Source: Secundilactobacillus malefermentans DSM 5705 = KCTC 3548
GTDB taxonomy: Bacteria > Bacillota > Bacilli > Lactobacillales > Lactobacillaceae
Assembly (NCBI RefSeq): GCF_001436395.1
Contig: NZ_AZGJ01000008.1
Coordinates: forward strand, 1 to 56,108
Length of the DNA: 56,108 nt
Direction of reading: 5' to 3'
Part shown: positions 26,277 to 30,456 of the stretch, piece by piece
Numbering within the stretch: position 1 is the stretch's first letter
How the letters are laid out: every line of letters starts with the position of its first letter
Notes under the pieces: model-generated
The model's input: the letters and a program-made list of their open reading frames with translations, nothing else
Told to the model about the DNA's origin: nothing
Database searches by the model: none
Program-made: the position numbers and the translations under genes

Positions 26277-28814
26277 TTACTTATTTTTCTGTTCTGTATT
26301 GCTTAATTCTTGACGCGCAATTTCATCCGTTGATCCAAATGCAATTTCTGCACCCACTTGTTGTTGGGAACTACCCGCTTGGTTCTTAACCCTTAGTTGA
26401 TTAAATGGGTAATTAAATTGCATTAAGACAACTCGATCTGGATGCAAATTTAGTTTAAATGTCGCCAGTGAGTCCGGAGATAATAAGCCAAGTTTTTGTT
26501 GTACCAGAATTCTAATCCAATTAACGCCAGTTACCTTGTTCAGGAAGGCAATTTCTGTCAATCTAGCAGGCCGAATTCCGGTAAACTTAACTTGGTCCTG
26601 ACTCTGTAGAAAGAGTACCTGTACAAGTCCCCTTAAGTTGCGCTTTTTCGCTTCCGCAACGGCTTGAGTAATAATCAAGTTCTGCTCATCTTCGCTTAAG
26701 GTTGGTGGCGTTTTAAAACCTGATACTTGGTCTAACTGATTTGAGTGATCGCCACTCAATAATCTGACTAGTTCAATTGGTGTAACTTCATCATCCGTGA
26801 CAAACAGACTTAATTCTAAATTAGCTTGTTCAGATAGTTCAACGCCTGCTTCTTGATCCGGTGGTAAGACCACAACAGGTAACCGCCGTTTTTTGAGTTC
26901 TCTTGTTAGATAATGGCGATTTCCTGGAATAAAAATGACCTCTGGATGTTCCAGCTCAATAATGTTTAAAAGATCTCCTAATTGAATGGGATCGACGTAC
27001 TGTTTGTCGCTAAGCTGTGGAATTAGTGACAGCGCATTGGGATTTGTATTAATAATGATGGTTTTATAGTCTGCTTTGCGAAGCTGATTTAAGAGACTGA
27101 CGGTGAAGTAGTCTGCCGAAGTATTGGGTCCGAGTTGGTTACCACCCCGACCAACAACGAGCGCCGATTTAGCCTCAAGCTTTTTTGACTCATTTTCGGT
27201 CTCAAACGTACTGTAATAAATGGTCGATACCTTATCAAATTCACCAGCAGTTGGTTCGACCGCTTTGTATGTCGGTAGAATTTGACTCTCTTTCGCAAAC
27301 GTTCTTATTGCATCAATCGATACTTGCCACATTCCTGCAATCATACCATCACCAAATCCGAAATACTTTGCCTTTTCCAATGTTTTAGCATCCATTGGAT
27401 TTGCAATTGTCTCGGTTTCGATTTTTATTAAATGCTTAATTTTATAGAAATAAAAAGGATCTATCTTGGTTAATTCAGAAAGCTCGTCCACTTGATAGTG
27501 GCGGCGCAGCGCTTCTACCAATGCAAAAATTTGCGTAGAACGAGCGTGAATAAGCTGATCAATTAACTCGTTATCATTTAGCTTGATTTGGGGCAAAACG
27601 TCCTTAGGGCTCAGTTGAGAAGATCTGAGCGCCTTCAGCATTGCTTCTTCAGTACTCCGACCAATTCCAATGGTTGACCCCACTGATTTCATGACTGTGT
27701 TTAAATGATCATCTGCACTTGGTACATCTTCAAATGGCCAAAGTGGAAACTTTGCAACAACGTGATCAACAGTTGGTTCCATGAGTGCTATTTGTTTGGC
27801 ATAATTATCGGGTAGTTTTATTTCTGCCAACTGTAATTCAGTGGCTAAGTTAGCAATCACGTGTGCTAATGGATAACCCGTGGCCTTTGCAGCAAGTGAG
27901 ACACTTCGATCGAAGTATGGACTTATTTTGGTCACATAATAACTATGGGTCTCACTATTCAATGCAAATTGGGTGTGAAGCACACCAGTAATTTTAAGTG
28001 CTTGAATAATTGACAGGGTTGCGTCCCTCAAAGTTTGAAATTCACGGTCCGTCAATGTTTGTGTTGGGACGAACATAATTGAATCGCCGGAATGAATTCC
28101 AATTGGATCCATGTTTTCAATCCCGCTAATCAAGAGTTTCGTGCCACTCTTATCACGAATAGCTACCATTTCAATTTCTTTATTACCCACAACGCTTTGT
28201 TCAATCACGCATTGATGAATTCTTGACTGTTCAAAACCACTTTCTAACGCGCTATCTAATTGATCCTCATTTTCACAAAGCTGCCGGTTGGCGTCTCCCC
28301 ATGGAGAAACGGACTTTATAATAACCGGATAGCCGATATCACGAAGGACATCAAATGCATCATCAAAATCTTTGACGACTTGAGAGCGAATGACAGGCTG
28401 ATTAATTTGAGTTAAAAACTGTTGAGTCAGTGCTGGATTACTAATCTGTTGAAGCGCAAGTGGCGGCATGCCCAGAATTCGAACCTCATTTTCTCCAAGA
28501 ACACCCGTTTCAAGCAATTCTTGGGTTACTCGAATTGCTAAAAGCCCGCCAATTGTTGGAAGTATTGCATCCGGCTGTTCTTTTTCGATAATATTTCTCG
28601 CATTATCAACAGTGACTGACTGAATGAACATGTTACTTGGTTGAACCGACTCCAAAGAAATAGAGTACGGATTATTGTCGAGTAGAAGCGTTTTAATGCC
28701 GAGTCGTTGGAAGGTCTGAATTGTTTGATAAATAACGCCATCGAGTTCAGTTTCGTGGCCAATGTCAGTATGTCCGCCGCCAATTATTAAGACTTTGTGT
28801 ATTTGATTGACCAT
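26277..28814 (-). CDS. CarB-like protein, degenerate carbamoyl-phosphate synthase large subunit
   Basis: 845 aa against about 1060 for true CarB. Colinear family segments are clear: pre-ATP-grasp (VLIIGGGHTDIG), ATP-grasp 1 with GIHSGDS (239-245), oligomerisation region (about 400-540), second pre-ATP-grasp (552-650) and a final lobe (about 704-835). Catalysis looks impossible. The glycine-rich loop reads PWGDANRQ (171-178) and the phosphate-binding Arg is K167. The metal-binding E-x-N-P-R reads KISPY (296-300). About 130 residues of ATP-grasp 2 are missing after 655, the last-lobe E-V-N-P-R is GIRPA, and the allosteric MGS domain is absent. The ORF is uninterrupted, with AGAGGAG before the ATG and 3 bases after the CarA-like gene. 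A maintained pseudoenzyme is my inference. Confidence 0.9.
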   Translation of the reverse strand: MVNQIHKVLIIGGGHTDIGHETELDGVIYQTIQTFQRLGIKTLLLDNNPYSISLESVQPSNMFIQSVTVDNARNIIEKEQPDAILPTIGGLLAIRVTQELLETGVLGENEVRILGMPPLALQQISNPALTQQFLTQINQPVIRSQVVKDFDDAFDVLRDIGYPVIIKSVSPWGDANRQLCENEDQLDSALESGFEQSRIHQCVIEQSVVGNKEIEMVAIRDKSGTKLLISGIENMDPIGIHSGDSIMFVPTQTLTDREFQTLRDATLSIIQALKITGVLHTQFALNSETHSYYVTKISPYFDRSVSLAAKATGYPLAHVIANLATELQLAEIKLPDNYAKQIALMEPTVDHVVAKFPLWPFEDVPSADDHLNTVMKSVGSTIGIGRSTEEAMLKALRSSQLSPKDVLPQIKLNDNELIDQLIHARSTQIFALVEALRRHYQVDELSELTKIDPFYFYKIKHLIKIETETIANPMDAKTLEKAKYFGFGDGMIAGMWQVSIDAIRTFAKESQILPTYKAVEPTAGEFDKVSTIYYSTFETENESKKLEAKSALVVGRGGNQLGPNTSADYFTVSLLNQLRKADYKTIIINTNPNALSLIPQLSDKQYVDPIQLGDLLNIIELEHPEVIFIPGNRHYLTRELKKRRLPVVVLPPDQEAGVELSEQANLELSLFVTDDEVTPIELVRLLSGDHSNQLDQVSGFKTPPTLSEDEQNLIITQAVAEAKKRNLRGLVQVLFLQSQDQVKFTGIRPARLTEIAFLNKVTGVNWIRILVQQKLGLLSPDSLATFKLNLHPDRVVLMQFNYPFNQLRVKNQAGSSQQQVGAEIAFGSTDEIARQELSNTEQKNK

Positions 28815-28817
28815 CGC

Positions 28818-29891: not shown

Positions 29892-29919
29892 TTAATTCAC
29901 TCCTAAATACCGCAATCGC

Positions 29920-30456
29920 TTATTTATGTAAAATTTCGACCGCGTCACGCCCGTCAATTTCTTCAACGGAAACTCTAATTCTTTCTTTTTGGGAACTTGG
30001 GATATTTTTGCCCACAAAGTCGGCACGAATTGGAAGTTCTCGATGACCACGATCAACTAAAACTGCTAAATTAATGCTTTCAGGTCGTCCCATGTCAATA
30101 ATTGCACTTAAGGCAGCGCGAATTGTGCGACCCGTGTAAAGAACATCATCAACTAAAATGACTTTTTTACCAGCAACTGGGAATGTAACGCTTCCGGCAG
30201 TGACCGTTGGATCATTTTCTTTACCATCGTGTTCAATATCATCACGATACATTGTGACGTCTAATTCGCCAACTGGAACTTCTGATCCTTCAAGCTGTTG
30301 AAGTCTGCTCGCGATTCGTTGTGCCAGGTAAACACCGCGAGTCTTAATTCCCAAAATGACTAAATCATCAATGCCCTTATTGTGCTCGATGATTTCATAG
30401 GTAATCCTGGTTAATGCTCGTTGCATTGCCATTGCGTCTACGACTACTTTAGCCAT
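29920..30456 (-). CDS. pyrR: PyrR, pyrimidine-operon RNA-binding attenuator / uracil phosphoribosyltransferase
   Basis: 178 aa. The PRPP-binding loop [18 protein letters not shown] (residues about 99-116), the [20 protein letters not shown] segment and the N-terminal [12 protein letters not shown] are intact, so nucleotide sensing should work. PyrR normally binds pyr mRNA leaders in the presence of UMP. I found no PyrR-binding loop in its own 110-bp leader and no pyr biosynthetic genes here. Its partners are the degenerate CarA/CarB-like genes. From memory, L. plantarum has a second PyrR tied to inorganic-carbon control, and this may be of that kind. An AGGAGG site precedes the ATG. Confidence 0.92.

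Follow-up and report, generated by a model that had tools for sequence, protein, structure and literature searches.

Organization of the cassette

The window analysed here is the whole of a 56,108-nucleotide stretch (contig NZ_AZGJ01000008.1, positions 1 to 56,108, NCBI RefSeq assembly GCF_001436395.1) of the genome of Secundilactobacillus malefermentans DSM 5705 = KCTC 3548, which belongs to Secundilactobacillus. It carries a cassette of three genes on the reverse strand, in which pyrR, encoding a regulator of pyrimidine genes, is followed by two genes resembling those for the small and large subunits of carbamoyl phosphate synthetase (CPS), here called carA' and carB'. As far as sequence can establish it, the latter two encode a conserved pseudo-CPS. 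The cassette consists of:

pyrR, 29920..30456, reverse strand: 178 amino acids; intact bifunctional pyr attenuation regulator and uracil phosphoribosyltransferase; the sole PyrR found in this genome.
carA' (carA-like), 28818..29891, reverse strand: 357 amino acids; pseudo-glutaminase subunit of CPS; Cys269 to Gly, His353 to Phe and Gln273 to Glu.
carB' (carB-like), 26277..28814, reverse strand: 845 amino acids; pseudo-synthetase subunit with a rewired first ATP-grasp site.

The initial annotation had described three genes with good ribosome binding sites and short gaps, and this description was confirmed at these coordinates. A GGAG-type ribosome binding site precedes each of the three starts, and the gaps are 28 bases between pyrR and carA' and 3 bases between carA' and carB'. 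Pfam and NCBIfam models confirmed the protein families. PyrR scored 263.9 bits against NF003548 (cut-off 218) and is therefore intact, and CarB' remained below the cut-offs of the CPS large-subunit models (564 vs 1027 bits for TIGR01369; 542 vs 599 for NF003671). CarA' (28818-29891), dead as it is, passed two small-subunit models, NF009475 and TIGR01368, so that automatic annotation would label it a functional CPS subunit.

Lost and kept catalytic residues

Residues were counted over distinct sequences only, 118 CarA' and 124 CarB', taken from the window and 140 loci; the loci comprise 60 family genomes and 80 further loci, at least 16 of the 60 duplicating a genome among the 80, and the rows for L179 carB and L163 rluD were dropped. 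Positions follow E. coli CPS numbering, from alignment to that enzyme, and the roles given are those that we take the catalytic residues to have in CPS. Gly replaces the catalytic Cys269 in all 118 distinct CarA'. His353 is kept in none of the 118, being Phe in the window and Ser, Leu or Asn elsewhere. Both residues are kept in 57/57 intact CarA from the same order. An apparent further loss, Glu355 to Asp, was rejected as such; Asp also stands at this position in 26 of the 57 intact CarA, including ones of pyr type.

The large subunit is equally altered. Compared with E. coli CPS, CarB' of the window has Gly179 of the first ATP-grasp loop changed to Arg, Glu299 to Lys, Arg303 to Tyr and Arg129 to Pro. 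Across the 124 distinct CarB', the ATP-loop Gly179 is Arg in 123 and Trp in 1, and the metal-binding Glu299 has become Lys in 115 sequences and Arg in the other 9, a reversal of charge without exception. Arg303 is Tyr or Phe in 117 sequences and Asn283 is His in 120. All 124 have a gap in the column of Arg715, a residue of the second ATP-grasp domain. Most of that domain and the C-terminal allosteric domain are absent, the protein ending approximately where the allosteric domain would start; an intact large subunit has about 1060 residues. Several residues of the first site are mostly kept: Glu215 (121 of 124), His243 (121), Asp246 (124), Ser247 (124) and Arg306 (107). The claim of the initial annotation that all main catalytic motifs are lost thus stood against E. 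coli CPS and the relatives in its main part, with the reservations that Glu355 to Asp is no loss and that Glu215, His243, Asp246 and Arg306 mostly persist.

We also looked at positions at which intact CPS is invariant and the pseudo family carries another conserved residue. More of them than expected lie in the old active sites, 6/14 in the N-terminal half of CarB' (P 0.005) and 5/9 in CarA' (P 0.0006), for active-site segments chosen after seeing the residues. An unconstrained site would vary, whereas the new residues are conserved. This suggests that the former active site was rebuilt in a conserved way, with positive charge added in CarB', possibly as a new binding site.

AlphaFold2 gave mostly confident, complete folds for both proteins, with a mean predicted local distance difference test score (pLDDT) of 90 and a predicted template modelling score (pTM) of 0.91 for CarB' and a mean pLDDT of 86 for CarA'. 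The template modelling (TM) scores against the E. coli subunits were 0.90-0.92 for CarB' and 0.94 for CarA'. The pair has the fold of CPS subunits and still contains the oligomerisation domain.

Selection on the two genes

The ratio of nonsynonymous to synonymous substitution rates (dN/dS) was calculated by our own Nei-Gojobori script, only for pairs with a dS of 0.1-1.5, and the pairs are not independent. The median ratios over 24 Levilactobacillus loci were 0.021 for carA' (130 pairs) and 0.019 for carB' (22 pairs), and those of the neighbouring genes were 0.027 for pyrR, 0.056 for rluD, 0.078 for lspA and 0.056 for rqcH. In Limosilactobacillus, the ratios of 0.013 for carA' and 0.033 for carB' are similar to those of rluD (0.033) and rqcH (0.027). 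The dS filter left three carA' pairs and one carB' pair in Secundilactobacillus and none in Paucilactobacillus. Comparison within seven Secundilactobacillus genomes gave a higher conservation for the dead CarA' (91.0%) than for the living CarA (86.3%). An open carB' of 815-862 codons is found in 140 of 141 sequences (the window and the 140 loci).

The initial annotation had argued that the genes are not in random decay, a dN/dS near 1 having been set beforehand as the sign of the opposite. With a ratio of about 0.02 and an open carB' frame nearly throughout, that argument held. Its related claim of open frames and preserved fold-defining segments was borne out by open frames under purifying selection and by the confident models.

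In Secundilactobacillus similis (L179, 3433-5993), carB' lies in three frames. Because lspA is broken there as well, L179 is probably a poor draft.

Distribution and origin

The dead pair was found in 142 of 251 sampled Lactobacillaceae genomes. They represent 20 of 40 genera, whose 143 genomes all have it but one. The count comprises 135 genomes over the score cut, minus G209, plus eight genomes of genus g26 under the cut, all of which were read as dead. G209 was excluded on account of its intact CarA motif GICLGHQ and its CarB of 1059 residues. A short CarB' is listed for 136 of the 142 genomes (a fragment in G165) and was read individually in the other six. The single genome of the 20 genera without a match, G174, is 76% complete.

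In the CarA tree, all 33 rows of pseudo CarA form one clade, with a Shimodaira-Hasegawa-like approximate likelihood ratio test (SH-aLRT) support of 100, inside the pyr-type part of the tree, and the branch joining this clade to the nearest intact clade has a support of 88. In 198 genomes of the order, the top CarA score outside the family was 536.9 bits, and the seven best such matches, which were read, carry the intact GICLGHQ. Pseudo CarA score 575 bits or more in 133 of 142 genomes, and the rest overlap the range of intact CarA. Since the most divergent pseudo CarA score within the range of intact ones, a rare divergent case outside the family is conceivable.

The neighbourhood of the cassette in the window is informative as to its origin:

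leader between rluD and pyrR, 30457..30566, reverse strand: a short inverted repeat followed by a T run; no PyrR-type attenuator found.
rluD-type pseudouridine synthase gene, 30567..31487, reverse strand: conserved upstream neighbour, which marks the ancestral pyr locus.
lspA, signal peptidase II, 31484..31942, reverse strand: upstream neighbour kept in most loci.
rqcH/NFACT gene, 24358..26193, forward strand: frequent convergent neighbour; its Pfam domain starts at residue 47.
terminator-like inverted repeat, two-way, 26204..26249, no strand assigned: between carB' and the convergent rqcH; read from the sequence.

The true start of rqcH is probably downstream of the listed TTG because the Pfam domain begins only at residue 47.

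The cassette order is lspA-rluD-pyrR-carA'-carB', often with rqcH next, and the median gaps within the cassette across loci are 28 and 1 bases. Nine loci were read for the ancestral order. Seven of them, from five cassette-less Lactobacillaceae genomes and two genomes belonging to other families, run lspA-rluD-pyrR-uraA-pyrB-pyrC-carA-carB-(pyrD)-pyrF-pyrE over the part that each stretch covers, and rqcH converges on the locus in two of these seven. The remaining two loci, both of genus g37, have no lspA or rluD in the stretch read. G209 displays the same ancestral order from rluD to carB. The shared lspA-rluD-pyrR flank identifies the cassette, by gene order, as the ancestral Lactobacillales pyr locus minus its pathway genes, with carA and carB dead but kept.

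Two arrangements were seen besides. A g37 genome without the cassette has a second PyrR gene directly after carB in its pyr operon (L290, 13687-14208). In L074 (1961-13978, Limosilactobacillus-type), pyrR and an intact carA-carB stand about 2 kb upstream of lspA-rluD-carA'-carB', placing the living and the dead CPS side by side.

Retention without the pyrimidine pathway

Among the 143 genomes of cassette genera, pyrB is absent from 24, part of this set having been obtained by subtracting the genomes with a listed pyrB match, and the cassette is kept in 24 of 24. No intact CarB was found in 23 of these, from nine genera, and pyrF was also not found in 18 of the 24. Over the 251 genomes, 30 have the pair with no intact CarB found, of which 23 lack and 7 have pyrB. 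Within Levilactobacillus (genus g16), 10 of 11 genomes keep the pair without an intact CarB, and for Levilactobacillus brevis, sampled as G084, neither an intact CarB nor pyrB was found.

The initial annotation had proposed to look for a separate intact carAB in the genome of the window. One was found on the 9.3-kb contig C111, with no pyr genes adjoining, and its CarA falls in another branch of the tree, which we label arginine-type, away from the pseudo clade. Neither pyrB nor pyrF was found in this genome (listed completeness 100). At locus L005 (3425-7547), an intact carAB has no adjoining pyr genes in a genome in which pyrB and pyrF were not found; this carAB probably serves arginine or another use of carbamoyl phosphate. 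In genome G177 (L338, 4403-8886), a pyrB-C-D-F-E cluster lacks carAB, and no CPS-like pair other than the dead one was found.

PyrR elements and the second PyrR of L. plantarum

PyrR elements (E<=0.001) were found in 20 of the 24 pyrB-less genomes, 38 elements in all. The gene beside the element was read for 30 of them: uraA in 13, ndt and/or an NCS1-type permease gene in 13, pyrF in 1 and none recognised in 3. In the genome of the window, the element before the uracil permease gene scored 46.3 bits (E 2.7e-5), which is below the gathering score of 54.

The cassette itself looks PyrR-regulated in some lineages. In 15 of 15 aligned Lactiplantibacillus leaders, a PyrR-like stem-loop and a terminator precede pyrR, conserved in shape and variable in sequence; the two leaders scored gave 26.4 and 30.9 bits with the Rfam model, below the gathering score. 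In G044, of the genus of Pediococcus, an element scoring 40.9 bits (E 2.4e-4) immediately precedes the pyrR of the cassette. The strict PyrR loop motif occurs in 1 of 106 rluD-pyrR leaders (L074 not counted). As leader elements occur in some lineages and none in the window, control of the cassette by PyrR is, on the leaders compared, lineage-specific. Preceding pyrR in four Levilactobacillus leaders (L143, L158, L171 and L174) is a long hairpin of high stability, with leader energies of -40 to -52 kcal/mol; L171, the one scanned, gave no convincing Rfam match for it.

The complete pyrR-B-C-carA-carB-D-F-E operon of L. plantarum EGD-AQ4 lies away from the cassette, and the cassette PyrR is 64.6% identical to that of the pyr operon. 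Because there are only two PyrR in the genome and the other one is in the pyr operon, the cassette PyrR is, by elimination, PyrR2. According to PMC3582564, PyrR2 of L. plantarum acts in inorganic-carbon control. In PMC7911632, lp_1782 is given as pyrR2 and lp_2704 as pyrR1; under butanol, pyrR2 is down 2.10-fold in one of two columns, and pyrR1 is down in both. The statement in the initial annotation that a second PyrR of L. plantarum is linked to inorganic carbon was supported, the cassette PyrR being the one outside the pyr operon.

Discussion

The pair can be set against several known systems. Like E. coli CarAB (1jdb, 1c30) and the pyr-type CPS of Lactobacillales, it has both subunits, the fold and the gene order, and it descends from pyr-type CarA; in contrast to them, it has lost the glutaminase residues and those of the first ATP-grasp domain, most of the second ATP-grasp domain is deleted, and there is no allosteric domain. 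With the PyrR attenuation system of B. subtilis and of L. plantarum PyrR1/PyrR2, the cassette shares an intact PyrR and the ancestral pyr locus, and most of the genomes checked have RF00515-type elements; it differs in having two CPS-like proteins in place of a pathway enzyme, and the targets in pyrB-less genomes are mainly uptake genes. The human CPS1 (5dot, 5dou) has a non-functional glutaminase domain without the catalytic Cys, like CarA', whereas its ATP-grasp domains are active and those of the pair are lost. A dead pyrimidine-pathway enzyme with a non-catalytic role is also known in Pseudomonas, where, according to PMC6022934, class A aspartate transcarbamoylase includes an inactive dihydroorotase that supports an active enzyme as its structural partner. 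In the cassette, on the other hand, neither subunit is alive, and often there is no active CPS or aspartate transcarbamoylase to partner with. In the literature searched, which most subscription papers fall outside, we found no title or abstract opening that describes a dead CPS pair and no paper joining the term pseudoenzyme with carbamoyl phosphate synthetase.

A PyrR-linked regulatory role is the best, though unproven, reading of these sequence comparisons: we give an even chance to the pair acting in the PyrR regulon without catalysis, as a sensor or a partner, and deriving from a pyr-operon remnant in which carA and carB were killed once. A sensor or partner of PyrR, for instance for bicarbonate, ATP or pyrimidine status, had been suggested in the initial annotation. 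That interpretation is supported in part, namely for the dead pair, the lack of random decay, the intact carAB elsewhere and the link to the second PyrR, whereas binding to PyrR and the sensing of these signals are candidate functions. Along this line, uraA, pyrB, pyrC and the genes after carB would have been lost from the ancestral operon, and carA and carB would have lost catalysis once, in the ancestor of about 20 genera, to be conserved since then as a two-protein pseudo-CPS. CarA' and CarB' may still associate into a CPS-like heterodimer, but one that yields no product. The heterodimer would bind a signal in the rewired carboxyphosphate site, with Arg179, His283, Lys299 and Tyr303 next to the mostly kept His243, Glu215 and Arg306, and the binding would modulate PyrR or the expression of its regulon. 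Without pyrB and CPS, this regulon would consist mainly of genes for the uptake of uracil and nucleobases; that of L. plantarum would include the pyr operon, and the signal might be inorganic carbon. The partnership with PyrR and the ligand of the pair are inferred. The site would bind an anion without ATP chemistry and be read out via PyrR or its regulon. A more specific version, in which the positively charged CarB' site binds bicarbonate or a phosphorylated metabolite, CarA'B' signals to PyrR2, and inorganic carbon thereby sets pyrimidine synthesis or uptake, is attractive for bicarbonate because of PyrR2, and we offer it as speculative and rather unlikely. If true, it would explain the phenotype of the L. 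plantarum pyrR2 mutant, which is reportedly CO2-dependent and said to concern carbamoyl phosphate supply, and would give the pair a use in bacteria that no longer make pyrimidines.

A number of observations weigh against such a sensor or partner of PyrR. CarB' is less conserved than the living CarB in the same seven Secundilactobacillus genomes (81.1% vs 86.5%), is highly variable in its C-terminal half and lacks the classical allosteric domain. His243 is Asn in 10 of 10 genomes of genus g26 (three in the distinct set and seven read later), and picking the active-site segments after the residues had been seen weakens the enrichment test. The old site would be a poor ATP sensor because the ATP loop and the metal-binding Glu are gone, and canonical bicarbonate binding is disfavoured by the loss of Arg303, which would hold bicarbonate in the classical CPS site. 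As to PyrR, the protein is present in 242 of 251 family genomes; being near-universal, its co-occurrence says little about partnership and was set aside as an uninformative test. The leader of the cassette in the window has no PyrR element, and four of the 24 pyrB-less genomes (G020, G041, G060 and G194) have none at E<=0.001 with the cassette kept. In Paucilactobacillus and Limosilactobacillus, pyrR is elsewhere in the genome and not in the cassette (33 of 139 loci, including L074, reclassified with its pyrR upstream in another operon). Finally, seven genomes (G094, G104, G165, G177, G197, G220 and G231, of which G165 is a fragmented draft) have pyrB and no CPS beyond the dead pair; either they have another source of carbamoyl phosphate or some activity is left in the pair.

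Several of these points would fit a conserved non-enzymatic role independent of PyrR, be it as metabolite buffer, enzyme scaffold or sensor on another target, with pyrR a leftover neighbour. Ancestral linkage alone explains the neighbourhood, and the two genera without pyrR in the cassette and the four pathway-less genomes without an element agree with it. On the other hand, pyrR stayed while uraA, pyrB and pyrC between it and carA were deleted, the short gaps were kept, the Lactiplantibacillus leaders and one Pediococcus-type leader look PyrR-regulated, and an inorganic-carbon role is reported for PyrR2. We regard this role as possible, on the unlikely side. The pair could instead still be catalytic, either as a CPS of reduced activity or by a different reaction at the rewired site, as the retention of Glu215, Asp246, Arg306 and mostly His243, the conservation of the new residues, and the need of the seven pyrB genomes for carbamoyl phosphate from somewhere might imply. 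Because these seven have no other CPS, we consider residual activity slightly more likely, and a role apart from PyrR slightly less likely, than we otherwise would. Catalysis by the pair is nevertheless improbable with the glutaminase Cys and His gone in every CarA', Gly179 and Glu299 kept in no CarB' and the second ATP-grasp domain mostly deleted, and 23 of the 30 genomes without intact CarB have no pyrB to use a product. Arginine catabolism can supply carbamoyl phosphate and might do so in the seven.

A subunit that assembles with or tunes an intact CPS, as the inactive dihydroorotase does for Pseudomonas aspartate transcarbamoylase, would account for the kept fold and oligomerisation domain and for the pyrR2 phenotype said to involve carbamoyl phosphate supply. 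As a general role it was rejected, since 30 genomes, including nearly all those of Levilactobacillus, keep the pair with no intact CarB found; we hold it to be very improbable. Simple decay of a duplicated or abandoned operon has on its side the frame-broken carB' of the single S. similis draft, in which lspA is broken too. The dN/dS of about 0.02 rejects it and the frame is open in all other sequences, which leaves decay a negligible chance.

With both CPS subunits dead and constrained at least as strongly as the neighbouring genes in about 20 genera of food and gut bacteria, the pair clearly exemplifies an enzyme complex that has become non-enzymatic. For the control of pyrimidine genes by inorganic carbon in lactobacilli, it provides a concrete candidate. 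Metabolic reconstructions can wrongly credit a CPS to the 30 of 251 genomes that have the pair and no intact CarB, 23 of them also without pyrB, because curated models call CarA' a CPS small subunit.

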